The position numbers were made by a program, and so were the translations under genes. A stretch of 11,736 nucleotides of DNA from Thermoplasmata archaeon. Its GTDB lineage: Archaea; Thermoplasmatota; Thermoplasmata; SG8-5. The DNA lies in assembly GCA_023136815.1 (NCBI GenBank), contig JAGLQM010000013.1, forward strand, positions 1 to 11,736, in the 5' to 3' direction. Shown piece by piece: positions 1 through 11,736 of the stretch; position 1 is the first letter of the stretch; each line of letters begins with the position of its first letter. Under the pieces are notes generated by a model. That model was not told the origin of the DNA. It saw only the letters and a program-made list of their open reading frames with translations, and did not search any database.

Positions 1-28
1 TTGTCAAATTTGCGTAATCTTCGTAGCT

Positions 29-79
29 CATAATCTAAAACCAAAGAGATTATGGGCGTCAACATTTTATCCCATAATC
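29..79. promoter_or_regulatory. Triple CATAATC inverted-repeat cluster upstream of glyA
   Basis: Three copies of one motif alternate in orientation. CATAATCT at 29-36 is the exact reverse complement of AGATTATG at 47-54. GATTATGGG at 48-56 is the exact reverse complement of CCCATAATC at 71-79. The arrangement could be an operator, or the second pair could form a 9-bp RNA hairpin with a 14-base loop 12 bases ahead of the glyA ribosome binding site. The copy at 29-36 overlaps an AT-rich stretch that could itself be the TATA element. Function is inferred. Confidence 0.45.
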
Positions 80-100
80 CTATATTGGCATGGTGAACCT

Positions 101-1387
101 ATGAGCGACATGCGGAATGAGGCAAATTACATTGTAGAGCAAATTGACAAGCACCATGACTGGTTTGGTAAATCCCTGCCGATGATTGCATCAGAGAATT
201 TGATCAGCCCGCTGGCCAGAGAAATGCTGGTCTCGGATTTCCATGACAGGTATGCCGAGGGACTGCCTGGCGACCGGTACTATCATGGTAATATCTATGT
301 GGATAAAGTAGAAACAAGAGCCACAGAACTGGCTAAAAAGCTTTTCAATTGCGACTATGCAGATACAAGACCTACTTCAGGCACAGTGGCCAATATAGCG
401 GTTTTAAAGGCACTGGGAAAGCACGGAGATCCAATCACCCATTGTGCGCTTTCAGACGGTGCACACATCAGCACCGCCAAGTTCGGCGCAGTAGGAATTC
501 GCGGACTGGTAAGTCACACTTATCCATTTGATACTCATGAAATGAACATTGATGTTGATGCTGCAAAGCGCACCATTCTCGAGGTCAAGCCCAAAATCGC
601 ACTTTTCGGCAGGTCAGTATTCCTTTTCCCTGCTCCGATTGCAGAGCTTCGGGACGTATTAGAAGAGGTTGGCTGCCCGGTCTGGTATGATGCGGCACAT
701 GTTCTGGGCCTCATTGCCGGAGGTAAATTTCAGGATCCGCTCCGGGAAGGTGCCCACGTAATCAGCGGTTCAACCCACAAGACTTTTCCCGGGCCGCAGC
801 ATGGGATAATAGTAGCAAATCCAAAAGACGACAAGATGGCCAGGAAGCTCAGTAGTGGCGTATTCCCAGGTGTAACAAGCAATCATCATCTTCATGCAAT
901 GGCAGCACTTGGGATTTCCCTGACCGAACATATAGAGTTTGGTGCAGATTATTCAGATCAGATAATTCGGAATGCCCAGGCACTTGGTCAGGCACTTTAT
1001 GAGAGAGGAATAGAGATTCTTTGCGAGCACAAGGGTTTCACAGCCTCTCATGTACTGGCCTTGGACGTTGAGGAACATGGTGGCGGGGCACTGGGCTCAC
1101 AGCTTCTGGAGGATTCAAACATAATAGCCAATATGAACATGCTGCCAAGGGACACAAAACCAAAGAGTCCCAGCGGCATAAGATTAGGCAGCCAGGAACT
1201 TACCAGACTGGGCATGAAGGAAAGCCATATGTCCGAGGTTGCCGAACTTATTAAGAGAATAATCGTGGACAAGGAGCCCACAGAAAAAGTCAAACAGGAT
1301 GTCATCCAGCTGAAGAAGGATTTCAATACCATCCATTACTGCTTCAATGAGGGACATCCGGCATATGAGCGATTCAAGTTAGTATAG
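101..1387 (+). CDS. glyA: Serine hydroxymethyltransferase, archaeal type
   Basis: This cytosolic PLP enzyme interconverts serine and glycine, moving the one-carbon unit to a folate or archaeal pterin carrier. The sequence shows the SHMT hallmarks: MIASEN near residues 28-33, YAEGLPGDRYYHG at 51-63, YDAAH at 196-200 (Asp197 should contact the PLP ring nitrogen), and STHKTFPGP at 224-232 with Lys227 as the Schiff-base lysine. SGIRLG at 358-363 supplies the substrate-carboxylate arginine, Arg361. Length (428 residues) is full for the family. The ATG at 101 is preceded by GGTGA at 92-96, a good match to the anti-Shine-Dalgarno. Which pterin it uses cannot be told from sequence alone. It appears to be transcribed alone: the next gene starts about 150 bases on with its own promoter-like element. 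The upstream region carries three related CATAATC half-sites. Confidence 0.97.
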   Translation: MSDMRNEANYIVEQIDKHHDWFGKSLPMIASENLISPLAREMLVSDFHDRYAEGLPGDRYYHGNIYVDKVETRATELAKKLFNCDYADTRPTSGTVANIAVLKALGKHGDPITHCALSDGAHISTAKFGAVGIRGLVSHTYPFDTHEMNIDVDAAKRTILEVKPKIALFGRSVFLFPAPIAELRDVLEEVGCPVWYDAAHVLGLIAGGKFQDPLREGAHVISGSTHKTFPGPQHGIIVANPKDDKMARKLSSGVFPGVTSNHHLHAMAALGISLTEHIEFGADYSDQIIRNAQALGQALYERGIEILCEHKGFTASHVLALDVEEHGGGALGSQLLEDSNIIANMNMLPRDTKPKSPSGIRLGSQELTRLGMKESHMSEVAELIKRIIVDKEPTEKVKQDVIQLKKDFNTIHYCFNEGHPAYERFKLV

Positions 1388-1466
1388 GCAATCTGCCTAT
1401 CTTACACCCTCTGTTATCTGGAAGCGGTTCACGATGTGGGTTGATACTACACCTTGCTCAAAATCC

Positions 1467-1482
1467 CGAAAGGCTTATTAAG
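1467..1482 (+). promoter_or_regulatory. BRE/TATA-like promoter of the coiled-coil gene
   Basis: CGAAAG followed by GCTTATTAAG resembles an archaeal BRE plus TATA box. The centre lies near 1476, which would put transcription start near 1502 and give a leader of about 34 bases containing the GGTGA at 1526-1530. The same CGAAAGG string precedes a TATA-like element on the minus strand at 4646-4652. Position and sequence fit; no direct evidence of activity. Confidence 0.4.
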
Positions 1483-1535
1483 AGGCCTCCCTTTTGGCCA
1501 ATCTATTCCAGCATATCTGGCTAATGGTGAATTAA

Positions 1536-2414
1536 GTGGAACTGGTAGACGAACTCATAGAAAAACGGGAGCGACATAATTCCGAGGCTGAGAAACACAA
1601 GCACCTTAGAGACAAGCTTAATGAGCAGACCAAAGAATGGGTCCAGAAAAGAGATGAACTCAACAGCCAGGCCAGGAGTCTTATTGATGTTGCTAACAGT
1701 CACAAGGCCAGACGCAACGAGCTTAACCAGGAAGTCCGGGACACAAAGGTTCATCGTGACGAATGGAACAAGAAGGTTAATGATCTGGCGGAGTTGCTGG
1801 CCAAGAAGAAGCGGGACAAAGAACCAAGAAAGGGTCCAAGTATCCGCCAGCTCAAGAAGAAGCAGAAGACTCTGGAACTGCAGCAGATGACCTCAGTAAT
1901 GAAGCCAGACAAGGAAAGGGAACTTATTGAACAGATAGGCACCCTCAGCAAGGAGGTTAAGGTTCTGGAAAACGATCTGGAAGGTGATGAGGACATCAAG
2001 GATCTTCTTGATAGTGCTACCGAAGCCCGCGAAAAGGCAGAGTATTACCATGCAAAAGTCGAGGAGATGGCCGACTCATCACAGGCAGAGCATGACTCCA
2101 TGATGGGCGTTTACGATAAATCCGATGCAATCCGCAAGGAAGCGGATAAAGCTCAGGAGAACTTCATAAAATGCAAGGTCCAGGCAGACGAAGAGCATCA
2201 GTCCCATATCGAGCTTATTCGCCAGATTCATGATTATGATAAAATGCTGTCTGGCTTGCGGCAAAGGGACTCACCTACCTCATTTGTACCATCTGCTCCA
2301 GGGACGCACAGATCGGATAAAGACGAGGCCAAGGAAATTTATGAACAGTTCAAGAAGGGCGATAAGCTGAGCACCGAAGATCTGATGTTATTGCAAAAAT
2401 CAGGATATTTGTAG
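1536..2414 (+). CDS. Archaeal coiled-coil protein (COG1340-like)
   Basis: This 292-residue, strongly charged protein has heptad-like, Lys/Glu-rich sequence over roughly residues 5-235, so it is expected to form a long cytoplasmic coiled coil with no membrane segment. A mid-protein break near 96-125 (proline/lysine-rich, then QLKKKQKTLELQQMT and EKE-type helix) matches the hairpin arrangement I associate with the archaeal COG1340 coiled-coil family. A Pro/Ser-rich linker (about 246-258) leads to a short C-terminal module ending KGDKLSTEDLMLLQKSGYL, also typical of that family. The molecular role of the family is not established. I see no HAD-type DxDx(T/V) motif, so a phosphatase assignment would not be supported. 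The start is GTG, chosen because GGTGA at 1526-1530 sits five bases upstream. Confidence 0.88.
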   Translation: MELVDELIEKRERHNSEAEKHKHLRDKLNEQTKEWVQKRDELNSQARSLIDVANSHKARRNELNQEVRDTKVHRDEWNKKVNDLAELLAKKKRDKEPRKGPSIRQLKKKQKTLELQQMTSVMKPDKERELIEQIGTLSKEVKVLENDLEGDEDIKDLLDSATEAREKAEYYHAKVEEMADSSQAEHDSMMGVYDKSDAIRKEADKAQENFIKCKVQADEEHQSHIELIRQIHDYDKMLSGLRQRDSPTSFVPSAPGTHRSDKDEAKEIYEQFKKGDKLSTEDLMLLQKSGYL

Positions 2415-2450
2415 ATTAATTCAGTAAGTTGGTTAGACTTATAACATATT

Positions 2451-2483
2451 TTTGACAAAAAGGTTTATACTTTTAATGTCAAA
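2451..2483. terminator. Bidirectional T-rich inverted repeat between convergent genes
   Basis: TTTGACA at 2451-2457 is the exact reverse complement of TGTCAAA at 2477-2483. The + strand has a T-run reaching into the left arm (ATTTTTG), and the minus strand has CTTTTTG. It lies between the ends of the coiled-coil gene (2414) and the ABC operon (2512), so it may terminate transcripts from both sides. Archaeal termination depends mainly on T-runs, so the hairpin itself may be incidental. Confidence 0.4.
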
Positions 2484-2511
2484 CTTGAGTTATAATTTTC
2501 AGAATTAGTGG

Positions 2512-3153
2512 CTACTTTATCATGGCTATCGGATCTTGTCTGGAAGCCATAACAGCAGAACTGTGGGAGCCCATAATTGAAATAATACTTGTTATGATGA
2601 ATGTTATAATAATCACACCAAAACCACTACTGCTCGGAGCAAAGAACATTGCACTGTCTCCACCAAGAAATAATTGATGTAAAAATTGATTACTGACTAT
2701 CAAGCCGCCAAAAAGGCCAACTAACCATGATGATAATGAAACCCAGAGAGTTTCTATAGTATAGATTTTCCCAATTTCACGATTTGTCAGGCCTATTGAT
2801 TTCAATATTCCTATGTCTTTTCGAGATTCCCAGACAGAAGAGCGTATTGTGTTGAAGATTGCGGCTGTTGAGGATATGACTATTAGACCTGCAGCTGTAA
2901 GTAACCACCGTGCCAGAGCCTCGGCCTGATTCACAGATAATCTTACTCTAAAAAATTCATAATTATACGGCAGGATTTCAATTTCACTATTATATAAACC
3001 AAATAATAAAGATAGAATGGTTGTAAGTACAGACACACTAACCGATATTGTAATAATCATCAGTATGTACCTGGCCCAGTAATGTTTTACTCTATTCCCT
3101 ATATAATGGTAAATGCTGAGATCCGAATAGTCTTTTTGTTTATTCTCTCCCAT
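2512..3153 (-). CDS. FtsX-like ABC transporter permease (second subunit)
   Basis: A 213-residue membrane protein with four predicted helices (about 29-52, 83-101, 132-155 and 179-196). Between helices 2 and 3 is the FtsX/LolE/MacB-type cytoplasmic signature, SRKDIGILKSIGLTNREI, which docks onto the ATPase. The loop between helices 1 and 2 is only about 30 residues, so the large extracytoplasmic domain of MacB and LolC/E permeases is missing. The frame is open up to 3252, but I choose ATG at 3153: AGGAG lies nine bases upstream, and starting at 3252 would add about 33 unrelated residues overlapping the ATPase. ATG at 3159 is an alternative. The gene overlaps the end of the ATPase gene, so the two are probably translationally coupled. 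It likely pairs with the permease at 3831-4439. Substrate unknown. Confidence 0.9.
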   Translation of the reverse strand: MGENKQKDYSDLSIYHYIGNRVKHYWARYILMIITISVSVSVLTTILSLLFGLYNSEIEILPYNYEFFRVRLSVNQAEALARWLLTAAGLIVISSTAAIFNTIRSSVWESRKDIGILKSIGLTNREIGKIYTIETLWVSLSSWLVGLFGGLIVSNQFLHQLFLGGDSAMFFAPSSSGFGVIIITFIITSIISIMGSHSSAVMASRQDPIAMIK

Positions 3154-3838
3154 ATACATTTGCTCCTGCATCAATCTCAATGTGCCCATCAAGGATAGAT
3201 ATTTTTTGAACGCCCTCGGCCATAAAAAGTTCAGGATTGTGGGTGGCCACAATAATGGTCTTTCCCTGGGAATTCAGTTCATGTAATATCCTGATAATAA
3301 TTTCTCCATTTTCTGAGTCTAGATTTCCGGTAGGTTCGTCAGCTAATATTATGTCTGGGTCATTTATCAGTGCCCTTGCAATTGCGACTCTCTGTTGTTC
3401 GCCCCCGGATAATTCAGAAGGGAGATGGTCTTTATGAGACGTTAGGCCCATTTCATCCAGTAACTCAAACGCTTTCTTCTGCCGTTTGTCCTGATCCATA
3501 ATTCTTGAAGCGATAATATTTTCAAGTGCAGAGAGTGAGGGGATTAGATTAAAGGCCTGGAACACAAAGCCAATGGTTTCTTTCCTGAGCCTTGATATGC
3601 TGCTATCTCGAAGTTTATAAATCGATTTCCCATTGACAAATACCTCTCCATGCGTGGGCTCCATCAATCCGGCTATAAGATACAAGAGGGTTGATTTTCC
3701 GGATCCACTGGGGCCAGTAATGACAATCATGCTTCCCTGGGGGATGTTTATCGATGCCGAATCTACTGCGGTTAATCCGGTGTTGCCGTCCTTATAAATT
3801 TTCGACACTTCAACCATTTTAATAAAATCATCATTCAT
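3140..3838 (-). CDS. ABC transporter ATP-binding protein, LolD/MacB family
   Basis: This 232-residue cytoplasmic ATPase should drive the two FtsX-type permeases encoded on either side. All catalytic motifs are present: Walker A GPSGSGKST at 42-50 (Lys48), Q-loop Gln94, signature LSGGEQQR at 143-150, Walker B IILADEP at 163-169 with Glu168, D-loop at 171-174 and switch His200. The LSGGEQQRVAIARAL and ADEPTGNLD strings are characteristic of the LolD/MacB/FtsE branch, which works in mechanotransmission or lipoprotein and antimicrobial-peptide export rather than classical import. ATG at 3838 has GGAGG nine bases upstream, within the end of the preceding permease gene, and the two genes overlap by eight bases. 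No membrane-fusion or substrate-binding protein gene is nearby, so the transported or acted-on molecule is unknown. Confidence 0.95.
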   Translation of the reverse strand: MNDDFIKMVEVSKIYKDGNTGLTAVDSASINIPQGSMIVITGPSGSGKSTLLYLIAGLMEPTHGEVFVNGKSIYKLRDSSISRLRKETIGFVFQAFNLIPSLSALENIIASRIMDQDKRQKKAFELLDEMGLTSHKDHLPSELSGGEQQRVAIARALINDPDIILADEPTGNLDSENGEIIIRILHELNSQGKTIIVATHNPELFMAEGVQKISILDGHIEIDAGANVYGRE

Positions 3839-4439
3839 ATTTCAGAACCTCCTCTATAGGAAGATGCCAGAAGAAATAAAACGTAATGTTAGATATTATT
3901 ATGGTTGAAATAAAAATAACCAATAATGGTGAAAGCATCCATACTGTGACAGAAAATGGGGATGCAAAAATCCCAATTTCATGATTAAAATTAATGTCCA
4001 TAATCAACCCAACAAGAATGGAGAGAACAGTGCCAATAAGGAAAGAAACGCTTGCAGGGATTAAATGTTCTGCGAGAGTCAAGTGCAGGAAGTGCTTACG
4101 TTTGAGTCCAATGGCTCTATATATTCCCATATCTTTTCTTCGCTCGGAAATATCCCTTAATATCTGAGTGAATAATGTTACAACAATTATTAGTGACACA
4201 ATCCCAAACAAGGTCCTGGTCCAGCCACCCACCGCTTCAAAAAAGTTCACTCCATTGTCAAAAATTTCCGGCCGCTGAGCCAGCTCATTTTCAATTCCCA
4301 CAGACAAACCAATAAGCAGCGACTGAACAAAAACACAGATAGATAAACAAAAGATTAGAATGTGAATCTGCTTGTTTTTATTTCTTAAATTTGATTTAAT
4401 GAGATTAAATGTGGTTGGATGACTGCTTTCATTAATCAT
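3831..4439 (-). CDS. FtsX-like ABC transporter permease (first subunit)
   Basis: First gene of the ABC operon: 202 residues with four predicted membrane helices (about 27-47, 77-93, 125-146 and 168-192). The coupling signature DISERRKDMGIYRAIGLKR lies between helices 2 and 3, as in FtsX/LolC/MacB permeases. As in its partner, the loop after helix 1 is only about 30 residues, so no extracytoplasmic domain is present. The two permeases are clearly different in sequence, so a heterodimer with an ATPase dimer is the simplest model. The frame can be read from a TTG at 4454, but ATG at 4439 has GGAG nine bases upstream, the spacing used by its neighbours, so I prefer it. The stop overlaps the ATPase start. 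Confidence 0.88.
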   Translation of the reverse strand: MINESSHPTTFNLIKSNLRNKNKQIHILIFCLSICVFVQSLLIGLSVGIENELAQRPEIFDNGVNFFEAVGGWTRTLFGIVSLIIVVTLFTQILRDISERRKDMGIYRAIGLKRKHFLHLTLAEHLIPASVSFLIGTVLSILVGLIMDINFNHEIGIFASPFSVTVWMLSPLLVIFISTIIISNITFYFFWHLPIEEVLKYE

Positions 4440-4447
4440 TAATCTTC

Positions 4448-4478
4448 TCTCCAAACACCAATATTAATCTCCAAACAC
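4448..4478 (-). repeat. 11-bp direct repeats, 20 bp apart, at the ABC operon start
   Basis: On the minus strand GTGTTTGGAGA occurs twice, at 4468-4478 and 4448-4458, exactly 20 bp or about two helical turns apart. The copy nearer the gene contains its GGAG ribosome binding site. The two copies bracket the expected transcription start (near 4465). This could be an operator for a regulator binding the same DNA face, or a duplicated Shine-Dalgarno. Function is inferred. Confidence 0.4.
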
Positions 4479-4483
4479 ATCAT

Positions 4484-4497
4484 CCATAATAAATATT
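4484..4497 (-). promoter_or_regulatory. TATA-like element of the ABC operon
   Basis: On the minus strand AATATTTATTATGG is a TATA-like stretch centred near 4491. Transcription would start near 4465, leaving a leader of about 26 bases before ATG 4439 that includes the GGAG site. Confidence 0.4.
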
Positions 4498-4689
4498 CTG
4501 TCTATAATCGGTTCTAAGCTTGCATTAAGCTTCGACGAATTGAAAAAGGAAGGGAAGGCTAGCTTTAAGTCAGAAGGGATGGGATGCACTCTAACAAACT
4601 AGCCCAAAAATCCCCAGGTTCCCTATATTTAGATTTATATAAATACCTTTCGAATAAGATTTATATACTCATCTCGAAAAATCCAATGC

Positions 4690-4801
4690 CCTATGCTCCC
4701 ATTTTTCGCATTTGCTATTTAAAGGCAAATTTCACTGGCTTCATAAAGTTTAATTTATTAAACCCATTTCATATATCTACTATATAGATACATCTATTTT
4801 T
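4690..4801 (+). ncRNA. Possible small structured RNA (speculative)
   Basis: Downstream of the + strand BRE/TATA candidate are three short perfect stems in a row: ATTTGC/GCAAAT (4710-4715 with 4725-4730), GTTTAA/TTAAAC with a 4-base loop (4748-4753 with 4758-4763), and TATCTA/TAGATA (4774-4779 with 4785-4790). A T-run at 4797-4801 follows. This promoter-stems-T-run order is what a ~110-base RNA gene would show. AT-rich DNA makes such stems by chance, so confidence is low. Confidence 0.18.
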
Positions 4802-4820
4802 GAAAAATAAGAAAGAAATG
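4802..4820 (-). terminator. T-rich terminator after the giant gene and 39-codon ORF
   Basis: The minus strand reads CATTTCTTTCTTATTTTTC, an archaeal-style T-rich termination tract about 40 bases past the stop of the 39-codon ORF. Next to it TATTTTTgAAAAATA (4795-4809) is a perfect palindrome with a one-base centre. Confidence 0.4.
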
Positions 4821-4857
4821 ATGTCAAAATAGGCTTTAACTCCCGCAACTCATACAT

Positions 4858-4977
4858 CTATGCGATAAACTCTCTGGCCACCGCTAAAAAGATGACCGGG
4901 CCAAGTATCAGTATAGGCAGGTTTGCCATCAGTTTTTCGGAAGCTGTTTTCAGTCTCTCTGAATCAAATTTTATCAT
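4858..4977 (-). CDS. Small single-helix membrane protein, 39 residues
   Basis: This short ORF begins 25 bases after the giant gene's stop on the same strand. It encodes a charged amphipathic-looking N-terminus (MIKFDSERLKTASEKLMANL) followed by a hydrophobic stretch from about residue 20 to 35 (PILILGPVIFLAVA), ending REFIA. That is the layout of a one-pass small membrane protein with its N-terminus probably inside. GAGG lies seven bases before the ATG, putting the start in nearly the same Shine-Dalgarno register as the other genes here. It ends before a T-rich terminator, so it could be co-transcribed with the giant gene. I recognise no family. Chance occurrence cannot be excluded at this size. 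Confidence 0.45.
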   Translation of the reverse strand: MIKFDSERLKTASEKLMANLPILILGPVIFLAVAREFIA

Positions 4978-5002
4978 TTATTTCCCTCGGTTCCATGCTA
5001 AT

Positions 5003-8000
5003 CTACCCTTTCTTTCGCTTATACTTTGGTTTCAAGTTTCTAAACAGGATAACAATGAGAAGCATCCCCAGAATGGGAATAATCAGATTATGCATTTCAG
5101 GAATGATTACGATTGTGGTTTCCATGGAATCACCCTTTATCTTCCACCACCAATTACCATCATCATAATAGACCTCTGCCGTGTTGATGAGAACGTCACC
5201 GTTCGGGACCGTGTCACTTACGGTCATGGTTATGGTTATTGTGACACTGTCTCCGCCAGCCAGTGTTCCAAGGCTCCAGGTATCATTATCGTATGTCGGG
5301 GAAGGCGTGGCACTGACAAAGGTCGTGTCTGCAGAATAGAACTCCATAATATAAAGATTATATGCTGCAACTCTCCTGGTGTTGGTCACGGTTATGGTGT
5401 AGGTTATGGTATCTCCTGGGCCTGCGGTTGCAGGTCCGGTCTTTGTAATTGACAGTTTTGGTTTTTGTGCTCTTGTTCCGGTGCTGGTATTAGTGTTGAC
5501 AGCAGTCATCTCAACCGGCTCATCGGAGGCATCATAGGCCCTATTCCAGTCCTCCATACTGGCATAGACAGTGAAATTATTGCCAGTGGCTATTCCCATG
5601 CTAGCCAGATCAATAGCCAGCTCCAATCTGTACCAGTCAATTGCAGAATCAATCTCTCCAATATATGACCAGGGTTCAGAACCCTGTGAAAGGTTAAATT
5701 CGAAGAACTGGCTTGAAACAATTTTATTGTGTTTTCCTGTGACCTGGGCTACATAATCTATTCCCAGAGCACCGTAAACATTGGTGCCGGTTCGAAAATC
5801 ATCATCGGCATCGATCATCACATAGGCAGAATCATAGCCAAATGCCTCAACATGGCCAATAGGGCCAACATATATTGATACAAATGCATCTGCCCAGTTT
5901 ACCGGGAAGTTAGAGGGAACCGTCGTGTTAAGCCAGTTATCTGTTCCGCCCCTGGGATATTCTGCTGTTCCATCGCCATCCCAGTCTCCATTGGAATCTG
6001 TGTTGTTAACGCCGTCATTATCAAAGTCAAATGGCATGGGGTCAAGGATGTCTGGTACCCTGTCCAGGTCCGAATCATGGGTATTGTTTATCGGGGTCGA
6101 TGTCTCGGACGGTCTTGTTCTGTAGATCGGAATATCCTCTCCGCCCAGTATTGTTCCGCCAACCGACAGGAAGACAAACAAATCTCCATCAGCACATGCC
6201 CGGAGGTCGGCCAGATCCACATTTTTATTCACCAAATCCGGGTTCTGTACCTGGAAGAATATATCGTTTGAGGCATCAACGTTCCTGGGTATGCTGGCCC
6301 AGTCCCCGAACGCCCCATCAATGCTTATTCCCGAAGGGCTGCCAACATAATGCAGCATAGTGTTCATGTTCCTTGCATATGCCAGTGAACCACCTGTGGT
6401 GACATTGACAAGCTTGATTCCCAGGGTTTCGCTGGTGGCATTGGCATCAAGGTCAAGGGTGAGCCAGAAGTCCCGGGTCCTGTTCAGTGGAATGCCCAAC
6501 GGGGAATTGAGAATGAAAGAGAATTCAGAAGCAGAGGTTTCAATAATTCTTCCATCGAGCGGCAGGTCTGCACCATTCTGGCCTCCGTCTCCATTTGTGT
6601 CATTGATAATTCTGATATTGGAAACATCGTCAAGCTCAGCAGAACCGGTCATCTGAAAATTGAAACCGGTTATTAGGGTGCTGGCAAGGCGACTTCTTGC
6701 TGTTATGCGTGCCAATGTAACCCCTGGTGAATTAATGTCCAGTACATCGCTTCCTGATGAATAGGATACCACATCAAGTGCCGCTGGCAGTTCAGAAAGC
6801 AGGAAGTCTGTCATATCTGAATGTCCCTCTGAGCTCTGGAGCATGACTATTGCTCTGGGATGTTCTGGAGTAATCTCCATTGTTTTTGGAGGATAGATTC
6901 TGACCTCGATTTCCGAAGTTCCAACAGCTACCGGTGCTGTTCCAAAGACCCTGAAACCATTCCAGTCATCCTGCCTGTAATCATTATCGAAGACAAGGGT
7001 ACTGGCGTGTCTTGCATAATTGTCCCAGCCATAAACATCCGCCGCCATGTCTGCTCCTATGCCTCCCATGGAATAGCCAGTCATTACATCACCATCAAGA
7101 TCCACAAAGACCACGAAACTGTCTACAAATTCATAACTGGTATTGGCGGCAGTTCCCTGAAGGCCAGTCCCTTCAGCTCCCTGAAGGACCGTTCCTTCCA
7201 CGCTTACGTATATACTCAATCGATCTCGTTCGACAAATATCTTGGATTCCAGGATGTTCAAGTCAGCATTATATACCTGATCAAGGGGTGAATCGTAGTA
7301 TGAAGGAATATCATTCCAGTCTGAAAAATTACCATCGATATAGATGGTGCCCATATCCTCCTGGACCATGAGATTGTTCAGCATTGAAAGCATAAGGATG
7401 ACTGTAACGAACATGACCATGGCACTTAGTCGGTAGCGCCACAGAATACGGTCCCGCTGCCTGTGTCTGAGCTTTCGAAGAGAGCCAGCACCGTCCATCA
7501 TACCCTTCCCATTCACCATGCCAAGGCCATTCACGAGTCCACCATTGATCAACCCACCGCTGCCATTGATAAAACCGTTATTCATTCCATTGGTTAAACC
7601 ATTGGTCAAGCCATTTGTAAGTCCATTTATCAGGCCGCCGTCAACGAATCCATTGGTTTTTCCGCGCACATTGTTTATTCCATTTATCTGGCCACTACTA
7701 GATCCATTTGTTCTCCCGCGGCCGTTTGTCAATCCTCGTTGAATAAGCAGGCCATTCACCCTGCCGTTCACACGGCCCTGGCCGTTTGTCAGGCCGATTC
7801 CGATAGTGGATAATCGCAAGTCTGGTTTTGTCCCCTTCCTTAAACCTGCATATGACAATGAGATGGATTTATCAAAGCATTCGACGGCCTCTTCATGGCG
7901 GCCCAGCAGTTCCAATATTTCGCCCTTCTCCTGCCAGAGCGTACCGTCATCCGAATTATCGGCAAGCTTTGCCTCCATCTCTTCCAGACGAGCTTCGGCT

Positions 8001-10183
8001 ACCGTATGTTCATCGAACGCCAGATTTTCGAGATCATCAATTTCTATGATATCTGAGAGATCAATACCATCTTCAGCTGGTTCAACGCCCATAAGTTCCA
8101 GCATCCGGCACTTGTATTCCACTTCCCTGGCCGGATTCAACTCTGCAGCCTTGTCCAGGCAGGCAATTGCCTCATCTACATCTCCCTTTGTGGCGTATTC
8201 CATTGCCTTCATTGACCAGAATTCATGAGAATCTGTTTCGTCAATATCAGCAACCAGGGACTCATCCATGTATTTATCTTCTTCAACAATGAGATTCCCC
8301 ACTCCAAGGTCTTCCTCAATCTTCTCATCGGTTTCCTGGCTGTATTCCCAGCGTCTTTTAAAATCTGATATAAGGGATGGTTTTTCAGCTTCCTCTTCAT
8401 CCAAATCAAGTTTTTCCCATCTGTCAAGGAAGCTCTTGGAAATACCCTTCTTATCTGGTTCTGACGAATCCAATGGCTCGTCCAATGGTTCTGCCTCTAT
8501 TTGCTCTATCTCTGAGGTAATTTCCGTGGAAAGTATCTCGGGACTTGTAATATGCTCCTGAATAGAACTCACTGGCTCAAGATCAAGGTCCTCAATATCA
8601 TCGAAGACCGTATGGCACCATGGGCACTTGGTCAGGTTCGGCTCTATGAAAGCACCACAGATTGGGCAAAGATAGATGGAGTCCACATCCACTTCCGGAA
8701 CATCTACATCAATCAGAGATTCCAGCTCATGCTCCAGTTCCACAGAGTCAATGAGACCTCCGACCTTCTTTTCCATAACCTCTTCGTCAACGAAGGCCTG
8801 TCCACAGTTATGGCAGGTCTCTGCGGCTTCCGAAAGGAATGCACCGCAATTCGGGCATATGAACAGGGTGCCTGATTTTTTATACCAGAATCCATCGTGT
8901 TCTCTCTCGATGGCGAAATCAAAACCGCAACCGTCACAGTTTTCAGCTTCGGCAGAAAGCATATTTTGACACATTGGACAAGCTACAAAATCAGGTGCCC
9001 GTTCCAATTCCTCTTCTGTAGACTCATCAGAGTCCGAATCATCAAAGGCAATGCCGCAAGCATTACAGACACTAGCATCCGAAGCAATGAATGATCCACA
9101 ACTGGGACACATGGATAGGTTCTTTTGCTCTTTATACCAGAACCCATCATCCTTTTTCTCTTGTATAGGCTCAGATGATTTGGGTGCTGGCTCTTCATCT
9201 TCGAATAGTACACCACAGTTTGGGCATGATTCCGTACTGTCAGCAGCCAATGAGCCGCAGTTCGGGCACATGAACAGACCCCTTTGTTCCTTAATCCAGA
9301 ATCCATCGGCCTTTTCGGAGAAGTCAAATCCGCAGTTCGTACATTCTGCTCCTTTTGTCTGCTCCTTGCTACACATGGGACAGAATAGTATCTCTGGAAC
9401 ACCAGGCTCCACTTCATCGGATTCGTCAGAGTTCACATCATCATCAAATGCCGTGCCGCAGGAATTGCACTGATTGGCCGAGCCTGGCAGAAAAATCCCA
9501 CAATTGGGGCACATGAATAATCCGTCCTGTTCCTTGAACCAGAACCCGTCATGTTCTTTCTCTATAATGAAATCGAACCCGCACTTTCCACAGGTTTCTG
9601 CATCCTCTGGAAATATGGTCTGGCATATTGGGCAGATAAGTTTGTTTGGAACTCCCTGCTCTTCCTCCTCGAAGTTTTCATCATCCTCAAAAACGGCTCC
9701 ACAGGCACCGCAGTGATCTGTGTTATTGGCTATGAATGAGCCGCAAGCGGGGCACATGAAGAGCTTCTCCTCGGCTTCTGCTGAAGTCGTGACAGAAACT
9801 GGTGTTTCCGCAGGTTCGGATGTCAGTTCCTCGTTTTCATCATTAAACAGAACGCCGCAGCTCGGGCACTTGGTCGAGCCATCAGCAACCAGTGAGCCGC
9901 ATTCCGGGCAAATAAAAAGGACAGATTCTTCTTTCTTGTACCAAATTCCATCTCCAGTAGAATCATCTTGCTCGGAATCTGCATAACCCTCTATTTTAAC
10001 AAAATTTATCATCTCCCTGGCCATCTCAAGACTGATGCCAGGCACTTTCGATAGGTTCACGGGGTCAGCAGTAGCAATATCTGCGATATTCTTGTAACCG
10101 TGGGAATGCAGGATTTTAGCTCTGGCTATTCCTATCTTTGGTATCAAGAGTAGTTTCATAAGATTATCACTATTTTCTTGCAT
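5003..10183 (-). CDS. Giant zinc-ribbon/TPR membrane protein with extracellular domains
   Basis: A 1726-residue multidomain protein of no single known family. In order: helix-hairpin-helix (about 10-62); ten CxxC/CxxC zinc ribbons (92-523); acidic linker with two TPR-like units (652-690, 744-780); Asn-Gly repeats (797-895); basic patch (901-918) and membrane helix (918-940); extracellular part with IDGxFxDW motifs at 949 and 1288, acidic calcium-type loops at 1195-1206 and 1370-1404, and a DUF11 domain (about 1576-1672); C-terminal helix (about 1696-1714) and basic tail. There is no N-terminal signal peptide. The basic flanks predict both ends inside and residues 941-1694 outside; that part has 13 N-x-S/T sequons. 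Start: ATG 10183 fits a leaderless mRNA from the TATA near 10211; ATG 10159, with GTGAT six bases upstream, is possible. Role unknown; a surface sensor or scaffold is my inference. Confidence 0.92.
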   Translation of the reverse strand: MQENSDNLMKLLLIPKIGIARAKILHSHGYKNIADIATADPVNLSKVPGISLEMAREMINFVKIEGYADSEQDDSTGDGIWYKKEESVLFICPECGSLVADGSTKCPSCGVLFNDENEELTSEPAETPVSVTTSAEAEEKLFMCPACGSFIANNTDHCGACGAVFEDDENFEEEEQGVPNKLICPICQTIFPEDAETCGKCGFDFIIEKEHDGFWFKEQDGLFMCPNCGIFLPGSANQCNSCGTAFDDDVNSDESDEVEPGVPEILFCPMCSKEQTKGAECTNCGFDFSEKADGFWIKEQRGLFMCPNCGSLAADSTESCPNCGVLFEDEEPAPKSSEPIQEKKDDGFWYKEQKNLSMCPSCGSFIASDASVCNACGIAFDDSDSDESTEEELERAPDFVACPMCQNMLSAEAENCDGCGFDFAIEREHDGFWYKKSGTLFICPNCGAFLSEAAETCHNCGQAFVDEEVMEKKVGGLIDSVELEHELESLIDVDVPEVDVDSIYLCPICGAFIEPNLTKCPWCHTVFDDIEDLDLEPVSSIQEHITSPEILSTEITSEIEQIEAEPLDEPLDSSEPDKKGISKSFLDRWEKLDLDEEEAEKPSLISDFKRRWEYSQETDEKIEEDLGVGNLIVEEDKYMDESLVADIDETDSHEFWSMKAMEYATKGDVDEAIACLDKAAELNPAREVEYKCRMLELMGVEPAEDGIDLSDIIEIDDLENLAFDEHTVAEARLEEMEAKLADNSDDGTLWQEKGEILELLGRHEEAVECFDKSISLSYAGLRKGTKPDLRLSTIGIGLTNGQGRVNGRVNGLLIQRGLTNGRGRTNGSSSGQINGINNVRGKTNGFVDGGLINGLTNGLTNGLTNGMNNGFINGSGGLINGGLVNGLGMVNGKGMMDGAGSLRKLRHRQRDRILWRYRLSAMVMFVTVILMLSMLNNLMVQEDMGTIYIDGNFSDWNDIPSYYDSPLDQVYNADLNILESKIFVERDRLSIYVSVEGTVLQGAEGTGLQGTAANTSYEFVDSFVVFVDLDGDVMTGYSMGGIGADMAADVYGWDNYARHASTLVFDNDYRQDDWNGFRVFGTAPVAVGTSEIEVRIYPPKTMEITPEHPRAIVMLQSSEGHSDMTDFLLSELPAALDVVSYSSGSDVLDINSPGVTLARITARSRLASTLITGFNFQMTGSAELDDVSNIRIINDTNGDGGQNGADLPLDGRIIETSASEFSFILNSPLGIPLNRTRDFWLTLDLDANATSETLGIKLVNVTTGGSLAYARNMNTMLHYVGSPSGISIDGAFGDWASIPRNVDASNDIFFQVQNPDLVNKNVDLADLRACADGDLFVFLSVGGTILGGEDIPIYRTRPSETSTPINNTHDSDLDRVPDILDPMPFDFDNDGVNNTDSNGDWDGDGTAEYPRGGTDNWLNTTVPSNFPVNWADAFVSIYVGPIGHVEAFGYDSAYVMIDADDDFRTGTNVYGALGIDYVAQVTGKHNKIVSSQFFEFNLSQGSEPWSYIGEIDSAIDWYRLELAIDLASMGIATGNNFTVYASMEDWNRAYDASDEPVEMTAVNTNTSTGTRAQKPKLSITKTGPATAGPGDTITYTITVTNTRRVAAYNLYIMEFYSADTTFVSATPSPTYDNDTWSLGTLAGGDSVTITITMTVSDTVPNGDVLINTAEVYYDDGNWWWKIKGDSMETTIVIIPEMHNLIIPILGMLLIVILFRNLKPKYKRKKG
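5102..7363 (-). other. Predicted extracellular region of the giant protein
   Basis: Residues 941-1694. Two domains open with IDGNFSDWNDIP (949-960) and IDGAFGDWASIP (1288-1299), the IDGxFxDW start of DOMON/CBM9-like beta-sandwiches common on archaeal surfaces. A middle domain (about 1138-1270) has the DTNGDG loop of calcium-stabilised surface repeats. Asp/Asn-rich loops at 1370-1404 resemble thrombospondin type-3 calcium sites and interrupt the second IDG domain. DUF11 (about 1576-1672, starting KLSITKTGP) precedes the C-terminal helix. Confidence 0.7.
7499..7795 (-). repeat. Asn-Gly tetrapeptide repeat region of the giant protein
   Basis: Sixteen Asn-Gly dipeptides lie within residues 800-892. 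Residues 851-874 are six perfect tetrapeptides of the form xxNG (LING, LTNG three times, MNNG, FING), and the DNA there (7562-7633) has a matching 12-base period. Flanking units are looser, with Arg or Gly inserts such as GRGRTNG. The stretch sits between the TPR units and the membrane helix, so a flexible cytoplasmic tether or assembly segment is the simplest guess. Confidence 0.9.
7844..8230 (-). other. Two TPR-like units of the giant protein
   Basis: Residues 652-690 (with GDVDEAIACLDKAAELNP) and 744-780 (with LLGRHEEAVECFDKSISL) match the helix-turn-helix pattern of tetratricopeptide repeats, which form protein-binding surfaces. They are separated by about 55 residues of acidic sequence, so they may act separately rather than as one superhelix. 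Confidence 0.75.
8615..9910 (-). repeat. Array of ten zinc ribbons with recurring DGFWYK linker
   Basis: Forty cysteines form ten CxxC...CxxC pairs, with first and last cysteines at residues 92/109, 144/161, 184/201, 225/242, 268/284, 306/323, 359/376, 402/419, 443/460 and 506/523. Two subtypes are visible: CPNCG...CGxxF(D/E)D, and CPMCQ...CGFDF. The motif DG(F/I)W(Y/F/I)K precedes a first-subtype ribbon five times, at residues 78, 212, 293, 346 and 430. Acidic linkers separate units. The pattern indicates internal duplication of a two-ribbon module. Each ribbon should bind one zinc; the ligand of the array is unknown. Confidence 0.9.
9998..10156 (-). other. Helix-hairpin-helix domain of the giant protein
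   Basis: Residues about 10-62 contain two hairpin-type turns, IPKIGIARAKIL and VPGISLEMAREMI, separated by a helix with ADP, as in the HhH_5 type found in DNA polymerase, ligase and RadA-like proteins. This fold usually contacts nucleic acid backbone, though in some proteins it mediates protein contacts. Finding it on a predicted membrane protein is unusual. Confidence 0.75.
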
Positions 10184-10205
10184 TATGCACTTAACTTATG
10201 GAGCA

Positions 10206-10216
10206 TGATATATAGG
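10206..10216 (-). promoter_or_regulatory. TATA box of the giant gene
   Basis: The minus strand reads CCTATATATCA. The centre near 10211 is about 28 bases above ATG 10183, so transcription starting 25-27 bases downstream would begin at or next to that ATG and give a leaderless mRNA. CATTATA at 10217-10223 and its reverse complement TATAATG at 10249-10255 lie just upstream and may be a regulator site. Confidence 0.45.
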
Positions 10217-10287
10217 CATTATAGTGACTAATTCAACGTTGTATGGCGTATAATGATAACAGTATTAACACACAATTATGTTAAAAT

Positions 10288-10995
10288 TTAACCACTTTGG
10301 CAGGTAATATACGGATTGATGCCCACCTCAATGGTAAATCTTCCAGATGAAAATCCCACCTCAATAATAATTCTGTCAAGTCCCTTTTTGATAATCCCCG
10401 GAGACCTGCCGCCCTGGTGTCCGAGTTTCTTGATTAGATGTTCAGAAAAATCCCTGGAATGCTGATAAAAATCTTCTGCCCTATCAGGTAAAAGTGTCGT
10501 TGAATAATATCTAATATTGTTTCCGTCAGCAACCCTCGTCACAAGACCGGCATTCTCCAGTTCTCCCAGTGACTTTGCCACAGTTTGCCGACTATGGCTA
10601 ATTGATTCGGAAATATCTGCCTGGGACATGCCGTTCCCCTTGATGACTTTGATTAATATTTCCATCAGCCGGGGCAGGTTGAGGACATAAAAGAATTCAA
10701 TCTCATTGTGGGTTATGAGCCCCTGGGGGAAGAAAATTCTACGCCGGCCGATTCGATTTTCACTAATATATCCTGCCTTGATGAGGGATTCTAGATGCCA
10801 TCCAACAGTATTTTGAGCAATGCCAGTCCTGGAAGCCAACTGACTGATTCCTATGCAAGGCGTCAGCGTCAAGGCAGAATAAATTTCCCTGCGGTGAGAA
10901 TTGAGAAAAATATGTTTACTAGATTTTTTGACAGACGCCTGAACCTCCTCATCCTTTATGGCAGATGCCAGTGCCTTTCCGACTCCCTTGCTCAT
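10288..10995 (-). CDS. Two-domain winged-helix transcriptional regulator
   Basis: A 235-residue DNA-binding protein with two winged helix-turn-helix domains in tandem. The first spans about 31-92, with IGISQLASRTGIAQNTVGWHL as helix-turn-helix and a basic wing NRIGRRRIFF. The second spans about 98-167, with MSQADISESISHSRQTVAKSL and wing VADGNNIRYYS. A small C-terminal segment (about 170-235) of unknown function follows and could hold a ligand or dimer surface. The layout resembles ArsR/MarR-like archaeal regulators in which two wHTH units are fused. ATG 10995 has GGAG nine bases upstream. The gene ends 104 bases before the giant gene on the same strand, so control of that gene, or of its own promoter, is plausible but unproven. 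No cysteine cluster suggests metal sensing. Confidence 0.9.
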   Translation of the reverse strand: MSKGVGKALASAIKDEEVQASVKKSSKHIFLNSHRREIYSALTLTPCIGISQLASRTGIAQNTVGWHLESLIKAGYISENRIGRRRIFFPQGLITHNEIEFFYVLNLPRLMEILIKVIKGNGMSQADISESISHSRQTVAKSLGELENAGLVTRVADGNNIRYYSTTLLPDRAEDFYQHSRDFSEHLIKKLGHQGGRSPGIIKKGLDRIIIEVGFSSGRFTIEVGINPYITCQSG

Positions 10996-11030
10996 GTATT
11001 CTTTCTCCAGGTGGATAAATGAACAATTGA

Positions 11031-11038
11031 ATTTATAG
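11031..11038 (-). promoter_or_regulatory. TATA-like element of the wHTH regulator
   Basis: CTATAAAT on the minus strand is centred near 11035. Transcription would start near 11009, immediately above the GGAG at 11005-11008 and about 14 bases before ATG 10995, so the leader would be very short. An alternative AT-rich element lies at 11041-11049. Confidence 0.35.
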
Positions 11039-11080
11039 ATGTTTATTCCTCAGAATGGCATGTTTACGCATATATTTCAG

Positions 11081-11146
11081 AGGCCTAATCCTCCGAATAT
11101 GCGCATACTATCGTATGCAAATCCGGAGGTCTAATCCTCCGAATAT
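11081..11146 (-). repeat. 20-bp direct repeat and hairpin at the end of the ATPase gene
   Basis: The 20 bases at 11127-11146, which include the last codons (YSED) and stop of the ATPase gene, recur at 11081-11100 with one mismatch, 46 bp apart. Between and within them is a hairpin (11090-11129). Its outer stem pairs CCTCCGGAT with ATTCGGAGG (one G-T pair), and its inner stem is GCATAC/GTATGC around a GATA loop. No T-run follows immediately, so a classical terminator is not clear; a 3'-UTR structure or protein site is possible. Confidence 0.6.
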
Positions 11147-11736
11147 TCCGCAATAATCTCCTGCATCAGGGTTTCAAGCTTGATGGCGGAAAAATCATCG
11201 TCCCTCAGTTCATGGAGAACGCCTATCAGCCTCTGGTAGACCCTGGCAGGAATATGGCCCCTGCTTGTTTCCAGCATTTTTTGCAGCTCTCCTGGCATTT
11301 CCTTGGTAGGCACAAGGCTGGAATTCTCCGGGTTCACAACTACGCCCAATCCTTTCACGATTGTATATTCATGCTCCATCTTGCTGTGTCTGCTTGACCT
11401 GCATTTCAATATCTTCAAGCGGCGCTGGAGCCCCTCCTCTGGGGTATGCAGTGTTTTCAGATGAATGACACAATCAGCCAGGTACATTGGAATGACAGTC
11501 TCATTGCCAGAAAGGTCCCCGGCCATACCATGCTCCTCAAGGGTTGCCAGCACTGTTCCCACTTTCCTTGTCTCCTTTAACATGAAGCCAATGAGCTCTC
11601 TCTGTTCGTAACGGTCTGATGTGGACCACATGACTGGCGTTAATGGGTCAATGGAAATTCTTGCATTTGCCCCTTTCCAGTCTGCCACAAAGGCAGGCAA
11701 TTCTTTCTTAATGAAGGCTGAAAATTCATGGCCAGA
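11131..11736 (-). CDS. KaiC/RAD55-like RecA-superfamily ATPase, C-terminal part
   Basis: The frame is open to the window edge, so the N-terminal part with Walker A lies outside and only the last 201 residues are visible. Hydrophobic strand ARISIDPLTP (Asp30 of the fragment) fits Walker B of RAD55/KaiC-type ATPases. Next come a helix with QRELIGFMLKE, the strand TVLATLEEHG, and YLADCVIHL followed by RRLKILKCRSSRHS, all in the order and spacing of that family's core. About 60 residues of extra helical sequence follow the core, ending EYSED. These proteins are NTP-dependent and serve in signalling, motility or recombination; which applies cannot be judged here. A TTG at 11700 is in frame but would cut the domain, so I treat the gene as partial. 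Confidence 0.85.
   Translation of the reverse strand, partial: SGHEFSAFIKKELPAFVADWKGANARISIDPLTPVMWSTSDRYEQRELIGFMLKETRKVGTVLATLEEHGMAGDLSGNETVIPMYLADCVIHLKTLHTPEEGLQRRLKILKCRSSRHSKMEHEYTIVKGLGVVVNPENSSLVPTKEMPGELQKMLETSRGHIPARVYQRLIGVLHELRDDDFSAIKLETLMQEIIAEYSED

Follow-up and report, generated by a model that had tools for sequence, protein, structure and literature searches.

The proposal of archaeal signalling hubs that contain inactivated KaiC domains (iKaiC) goes back to Makarova, Galperin and Koonin (2017), as cited in the available passages of PMC5847659, PMC6393860 and PMC13286277. Here we describe a contig of a Thermoplasmata archaeon (JAGLQM010000013.1 of assembly GCA_023136815.1, positions 1 to 11,736; this whole stretch is called the window) in which the gene of a giant transmembrane protein follows those of a KaiC-like ATPase and a tandem winged-helix regulator. 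To judge from those passages, the locus and its relatives resemble the iKaiC hubs in that a KaiC ATPase lies beside a DNA-binding regulator and that degenerate KaiC or DUF835 domains are fused to other modules. Unlike in the hubs, the partner is a transmembrane protein, ~900 to 3200 aa long across its family, with zinc-ribbon/TPR parts inside and CBM9-type domains outside. Cyanobacterial KaiC offers a second comparison: a profile built from the partner KaiCs aligns with KaiC chains of solved structure over two stretches, and aligned relatives keep the Walker A, catalytic Glu, Walker B and KxR residues, whereas the partner KaiCs have a single ATPase domain with a C-terminal extension of ~65 aa. 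ArlH/FlaH of the archaellum, as portrayed in the passages at hand, is likewise a KaiC-family ATPase tied to a membrane-spanning surface assembly. In the open-licence PMC literature, as represented by titles, the starts of abstracts and passages, neither the giant of this family nor the trio is described. What appears to be new is not the idea of a KaiC hub but its giant receptor-like partner and the trio.

KaiC and a winged-helix regulator accompany the giant

The window is the whole of contig G000:C35 from a metagenome-assembled genome (MAG) of 949,536 bases that is 61% complete. The following features make up the giant and its two upstream neighbours:

11131..11736, minus strand: KaiC-like ATPase, C-terminal 201 aa, cut by the contig end (PF06745, E 3.9e-12)
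10288..10995, minus strand: tandem winged-helix regulator, 235 aa (HTH_24, E 4.6e-16, in two stretches, 31-77 being the best; alignment A4)
5003..10183, minus strand: giant transmembrane protein, 1726 aa, a single frame from ATG to stop (Pfam, hydropathy)
10004..10156, minus strand: N-terminal HhH domain of the giant, residues 10-60 (Pfam HHH_5, E 8.5e-10)
8615..9910, minus strand: array of ten zinc ribbons, residues 92-523 (20 CxxC motifs; Pfam)
7853..8224, minus strand: TPR region, residues 654-777 (Pfam TPR_8, E 3.2e-12)
7493..7795, minus strand: NG-rich tract, residues 797-897 (from the sequence; tract in 80/84 family members)
7364..7420, minus strand: membrane helix 1, residues 922-940 (hydropathy; K/R bias across 84 members)
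6794..7363, minus strand: IDG module 1, CBM9 fold, residues 941-1130 (IDGxFxDW-type motif from 949; predicted structure)
6341..6781, minus strand: middle beta domain resembling the N-terminal domain of GH33 sialidases, residues ~1135-1281 (fold search, predicted structure)
5474..6322, minus strand: IDG module 2 with an Asp-rich insert, residues 1288-1570 (motif at 1288; Asp columns conserved in alignment A1)
5165..5455, minus strand: DUF11 domain, residues 1577-1673 (Pfam, E 4.5e-15)
5033..5089, minus strand: C-terminal helix, residues 1699-1717 (hydropathy; IIPEM before it, basic tail after it)

An earlier note on this DNA had described one 1726-codon frame joining an HhH domain, ten ribbons, TPRs, an NG tract and an outer module, and the ORF, Pfam matches, motifs and hydropathy confirmed it. 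Pfam recognised the ribbons (Zn_ribbon_3, E 5.9e-26; DZR, E 1.7e-23), and the hydropathy threshold was exceeded in the giant only at ~913-941 and ~1690-1719. The coordinates of the note (5003-10183) turned out to be incomplete, because the regulator and KaiC genes lie beyond them, directly upstream of the giant and on the same strand. The regulator contains two winged-helix domains, the second of which is covered by MarR_2 (118-158) and TrmB (114-163). The KaiC fragment is 90% identical to the full-length KaiC of locus L036 and scored 46.5 bits with PF06745 (gathering score 26.6), the full-length L036 orthologue reaching 128.3 bits. Residues K35, E60, D121, K202 and R204, whose roles we take to be those of Walker A, the catalytic Glu, Walker B and KxR, are kept in 27/27 aligned full-length KaiC relatives (the N-terminal part of the window's copy lies beyond the contig end).

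Some part of the giant was matched by 91 of 100 relatives at E <= 0.001. Our family set comprises 84 ORFs of at least 350 aa with the outer core, taken from loci fetched around the better matches; drawn mostly from the better part of the matches listed, it is a non-random sample, and its counts are to be read as such. Alignments covered subsets: 46/84 (A1) and 52/84 (A5) outer cores, 13 N-domains (A2), 27/52 (A3) and, for the regulator, 28/34 (A4) profile hits, and nine of the ten fused KaiC domains (L068 omitted). Linkage was counted for the 70 members of the family whose upstream flank reached 1.5 kb or more, other ORFs of at least 250 aa in the same loci serving as controls. Both KaiC and the regulator lay upstream of 16/20 members with the HhH domain first and of 6/8 with the HhH domain further in. 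KaiC was found upstream of 6/9 members with a fused KaiC domain (both genes in 2) and of 7/33 members of 'other' type (both genes in 3), compared with 2/216 control ORFs. The HhH profile missed L053, L054 and L084, which are counted as 'other' with KaiC and regulator, and L057 has the order giant, KaiC, regulator. Since KaiC-family matches number 18-36 per genome (13 genomes), chance adjacency to the giant should be rare.

The reverse search, with the L036 KaiC as query at E <= 1e-40 (in some genomes just 24 candidates were scored), yielded 64 hits of at least 279 bits and, after a gap, 34 hits of at most 204 bits. We examined 63 of the 64 upper-group loci (the one left out, at G006:C69, agrees with an included locus in coordinates and score) and five of the 34 lower-group loci. 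In the upper group, the regulator was adjacent at 58 of the 63 loci, a giant at 31 and a truncated giant at 5 (giants within 3 kb); where at least 3 kb remained downstream, a giant was present in 29/46. Neither regulator nor giant was found at any of the five lower-group loci examined. Identity to the L036 KaiC is 50-92% for the aligned KaiCs of the 20 other HhH-type modules, whereas the IDG modules of 51 other members of all types share 20-66% with the window's, suggesting a constant hub and a variable receptor.

Three further observations concern these KaiC loci. Contig G000:C16 of the same MAG carries, at 2210-3395 (L143), a second KaiC (91% identical to that of L036), after which a regulator begins and is cut by the contig end; this copy may be a paralogous module, strain variation or contamination. 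At L148 and L150, in two genomes of family f6, an upper-group KaiC is followed by a 197-aa protein with two CxxC motifs in place of the winged-helix regulator. Finally, G010:C58 and G006:C69, from genomes of different families, gave matches with identical coordinates and bit scores, which suggests a contamination shared between MAG bins.

No histidine kinase or receiver domain was found in the giant (best 25 of 30 matches), the regulator (best 25 of 45) or the KaiC fragment. In the genomes, receiver-domain matches numbered 0-16; they were present in 19/21 genomes and over the cut-off in 18/21. We therefore make no claim that two-component systems are absent, and dropped the idea that these archaea lack them. 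The idea had come from the Thermoplasmata row of a table in PMC5847659 (11 genomes), which, in the portion available, gives 3 and 4, read by us as kinases and regulators.

Inactivated KaiC domains are fused to related giants

Ten family members carry an N-terminal KaiC domain (PF06745 in the three fused copies tested: E 2.8e-25, 1.8e-27 and 2.8e-6). The separate KaiC directly upstream, counted above for six of the nine such members with enough flank, also occurs in the tenth, L080. Three residues are each lost in 9/9 fused copies aligned and kept in 27/27 aligned separate KaiCs: the Thr/Ser of Walker A, the catalytic Glu and the KxR Lys. A further decayed KaiC relative was found in the giants of L040, L041, L045 and L056, with an hhalign probability of 99.6% against the fused copies and of just 0.5 and 2.3% against the separate KaiCs; these giants, too, adjoin a separate KaiC, which at L040 comes after a 198-aa protein that matches winged-helix models weakly (HTH_20, E 7e-5, below cut-off). 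An active KaiC beside a giant-borne inactivated one occurs in the paralogous modules L060, L063, L080, L083 and L097, a pairing that might be expected of a physical complex. The window's giant has its HhH domain and ribbons in place of the inactivated KaiC domain.

Beyond the class, a survey of 145 genomes drawn from the phylum returned 13 with the outer core, three of them the window's own or of its class; the remaining 10 matched at E <= 1e-10. KaiC lies within 3 kb upstream of 6 of the 22 core ORFs collected there. At L125 and L127, the regulator stands between KaiC and the giant, at L129 and L133 KaiC is 14 bp away, and L138 has a KaiC domain in mid-protein. The N-terminus of L129 is a DUF835 domain (E 2.2e-31), and that of L133 looks alike by eye; a passage of PMC5847659 lists DUF835 as an inactivated KaiC domain.

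Topology and outer domains of the giant

The giant, for which no characterised protein of the same domain order had been known to the earlier note, is not a unique chimera; it belongs to a large family with interchangeable cytoplasmic N-termini. At least one ribbon occurs before helix 1 in 60/84 members and after it in 1/84, and the cytoplasmic number of ribbons ranges from 15 (L042) down to none. An NG tract lies within 200 residues before helix 1 in 80/84 members. The outer-core profile includes helix 1, which all 84 members therefore have by definition, but it covers neither the NG tract nor the ribbons.

Lys and Arg (K/R) are more numerous in the 15 residues preceding helix 1 than in the 15 that follow, in 84/84 members (means 4.8 vs 0.64). 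N-x-S/T sequons are depleted before helix 1 (2.35 per 1000, vs 5.1 in shuffles) and enriched after it (12.3 per 1000, vs 9.0 in shuffles), while Cys falls from 25.8 to 4.3 per 1000 residues, and the part before helix 1 holds, in paralogues, a KaiC-type domain, expected to be cytoplasmic. Taken together, the K/R bias, the sequon and Cys distributions and the KaiC-type domain make a predicted inside location of the N-terminal half and an outside location of the long middle part well supported. These signals do not place both halves on one side of the membrane, and of the N-in/C-in topology proposed before, the inner N-terminus and the large outer part stood. The C-terminus of the mature protein is less certain, because an IPEF-like motif, a helix and a basic tail together resemble archaeal sorting signals: the motif precedes the C-terminal helix in 56/68 complete C-termini, and the basic tail is present in 50/68. 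Such tails recall substrates of the PEF-CTERM/archaeosortase type, and exo_archaeo (exosortase/archaeosortase-type) matches were found in 8/14 genomes; the window's own MAG, 61% complete, had none. Unlike in PEF-CTERM proteins, TIGR03024 (PEF-CTERM) matched the tails only below its cut-off, in 4 of the 10 scanned, and did not match the other six, including that of the window's giant.

The IDG motifs at 949 and 1288 and the DUF11 domain of the proposed outer beta modules were recovered. The description needed revision in that no Pfam model matches the IDG modules, the first of them is by predicted structure of CBM9 type, and an extra domain (~1135-1281) lies between the two. Folded alone, IDG module 1 matches the CBM9 beta-sandwich in its predicted structure, resembling CBM9 modules in fold and differing in sequence (just 14-15% identity); none of the 46 members of A1 has a Pfam match to a CBM9 family at E <= 0.01. 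A fold search with the whole ectodomain hardly covered this first domain and showed the middle domain to be like the N-terminal domain of GH33 sialidases. For the whole model, Foldseek ranked integrins, complement and others first, but their TM-scores by query length were 0.10-0.17, and we disregarded them. Against solved-structure sequences, the profile of the outer part gave no match and that of IDG module 1 two, both at chance level. NCBIfam TIGR04145 matched IDG module 1 in 21/52 copies (best E 5.3e-6), with 22.4 bits in the window's copy against a cut-off of 50.

A proposed mechanism and its alternatives

The proposal of a transmembrane sensor or scaffold is plausible in view of the fused protein and its topology, and incomplete in that the KaiC ATPase and regulator beside the giant were not part of it. 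Our leading explanation, on which we are evenly divided, is a transmembrane system for signalling or scaffolding that is coupled to KaiC: it would bind glycan or a surface on the outside, dock KaiC on the inside and act through the winged-helix regulator as its output. The KaiC-like ATPase, the tandem winged-helix regulator and the giant would form a three-gene module. In this module, the outer part, made up of two IDG modules (the first with the predicted CBM9 fold), the sialidase-CBM-like domain and a distal end that varies and is DUF11 here, would bind its putative ligand, a glycan or other component of the cell surface, and the inner part (HhH, acidic ribbon array, TPR and NG tract) would be a docking scaffold for the KaiC ATPase. 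With signalling presumed to run inwards, binding or strain outside would alter the assembly or nucleotide state of KaiC, which would then alter DNA binding of the partner regulator; the regulon would probably include the module itself. A candidate operator lies between the regulator and the giant:

10184..10287, minus strand: intergenic region between regulator and giant, with a candidate dyad ACATAATTGTGTGT at 10268-10281 and a TATA-like box CTATATAT at 10208-10215

The TATA-like box stands 25-32 nt before the start codon of the giant, and a like box was seen in seven relatives of the same family. The spacer between regulator and giant measures 74-135 nt in 23 of the 27 trios listed. An ACA-N5-9-TGT dyad starting at most 30 nt from the regulator stop occurs in 12 of 26 spacers (of at least 60 nt); shuffling the spacers 300 times gave a mean of 1.69 and never more than 5.

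Several points weigh against a KaiC-coupled signalling system. Neither gene lies upstream of 26/33 'other', 4/20 HhH-first, 2/8 HhH-mid and 3/9 KaiC-fused members, and 15 of the 22 core ORFs outside the class have no KaiC link. Among upper-group KaiC loci, 17 of the 46 with room have no adjoining giant, which suggests that KaiC and the regulator can also act as a pair on their own or have further partners, and 5/63 have no regulator. The six KaiCs aligned from modules with fused or decayed KaiC domains are 25-29% identical to the L036 KaiC, so that the fusions point to a module that is related yet distinct rather than to the window-type KaiC itself. The dyad is absent at its place in 14/26 spacers, and because its pattern was picked after the alignment had been viewed, in related and hence not independent sequences, it is a lead only. 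A predicted CBM9 fold does not prove sugar binding, and the linkage and fusions would fit a role in assembly or expression control equally well.

In the main rival reading, the giant would be a structural surface protein, such as an adhesin or S-layer-like stalk, that KaiC assembles, positions or switches in the manner of ArlH; the regulator would merely set its expression, and information would run from inside to outside. DUF11, LTD and FG-GAP domains and sorting-signal-like tails suit structural surface proteins, and, in the passages available, the KaiC homologue ArlH is essential for archaellum assembly (PMC13286277) and KaiC genes cluster with type IV pili (PMC4858521). We consider this explanation rather unlikely, given that an anchor would hardly seem to need a scaffold with HhH, TPR and as many as 15 ribbons and that KaiC accompanies the DNA-binding regulator more often than the giant (58 vs 36 of 63).

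Inherited synteny could also have made the KaiC-regulator pair and the giant neighbours with no functional link. In the window's family, the order of the block is kept near the serine hydroxymethyltransferase (SHMT) gene, the block lies beside a gene that we take to be pdxS, and KaiC-regulator pairs exist apart from a giant. The KaiC linkage nevertheless recurs with different members, at different loci and in different orders (L057), as well as in the form of fusions, which makes mere synteny improbable.

A similarly doubtful alternative is that the inner half binds nucleic acid and tethers the nucleoid, mRNA or ribosomes to the membrane. HhH domains and zinc ribbons are common in nucleic-acid proteins, and the NG tract (+8) and juxtamembrane stretch (+5) are basic in the window, as they are in 43/56 members measured. 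Residues 65-640 of the giant, however, carry a net charge of -100 and residues 641-790 one of -26, and the part before the NG tract is acidic in 52/56 members measured. This acidity argues for protein contacts rather than nucleic acid and leaves the proposed 'nucleic-acid-style' character of the inner half weak. As the array is strongly acidic and KaiC-type domains replace HhH and ribbons in paralogues, we do not prefer nucleic-acid tethering as the main function. Proteins of TcaA type have a layout of a zinc ribbon, one helix and an outer domain. A weak NCBIfam TcaA match around one ribbon of the giant (305-338; E 1.9e-4, far under the 550-bit cut-off) recalls this and other such proteins, from which the giant differs by its ten ribbons, HhH domain, TPR region and NG tract.

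That an assembly or annotation artefact fused two genes, conceivable for a single short contig of a 61%-complete MAG, is refuted almost beyond doubt, since HhH, ribbon(s) and outer core share one ORF in 22 genomes of ten family-level groups (seven more proteins have a version with HhH further in, plus ribbon(s) and outer core). Nor are the homologues split, and same-genus orthologues keep the giant: G002 matches residues 70-1725 at 67% and 1-130 at 55%, its contig as publicly deposited (L035, DAOVXH010000017.1) gives a match over 1-1725, and G001 aligns in three segments (60, 73 and 78%). On this evidence, we rejected both chance and an assembly join.

Genes downstream of the giant

Three further features lie on the downstream side of the giant gene:

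4858..4977, minus strand: single-helix microprotein, 39 aa, just downstream of the giant gene
2512-4454, minus strand: FtsX-ABC-FtsX transporter genes, between DUF7121 and the giant
1536-2414, plus strand: DUF7121 protein (E 3.9e-42), adjoining the SHMT gene

Microprotein-like sequences with an LxNLP-like motif were seen just downstream of the giant at L036, L038, L039, L043 and L044, with no clear start codon seen at L044; at L042, the frame of the giant continues into a microprotein-like sequence. At E <= 1e-4, the transporter ATPase had no match in L038, L039 and L044 and, leaving the window's own locus aside, matched just two stretches, both in L057. Because L057 was the only match among the loci compared, we place the transporter outside the conserved block and set it aside as a partner of the giant; its genes are probably a local insertion, or were lost elsewhere. 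The pair of DUF7121 and SHMT genes recurs in L038 and L044.

Implications for KaiC signalling in archaea

To our knowledge, the inputs to the proposed archaeal KaiC hubs are mostly unidentified. Here a clear score gap separates one KaiC subclade, which goes with a single DNA-binding partner and often also with a giant transmembrane protein whose outer domains are carbohydrate-binding-like. More tentatively, and at a little under even confidence, we propose that this may reflect a class-wide mode of archaeal signalling, in which giant CBM9-type receptors would act through a dedicated KaiC on a winged-helix regulator by way of an interchangeable cytoplasmic adaptor, be it HhH and ribbons, TPR-HhH-ribbon, inactivated KaiC or DUF835. 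If this is true, such a system would supply the missing receptors of the hubs, and paralogous modules in one genome would sense different surface ligands. The observed KaiC linkage turns the notion of KaiC as an archaeal signalling hub into concrete trios of putative receptor, ATPase and regulator that can be expressed and tested.

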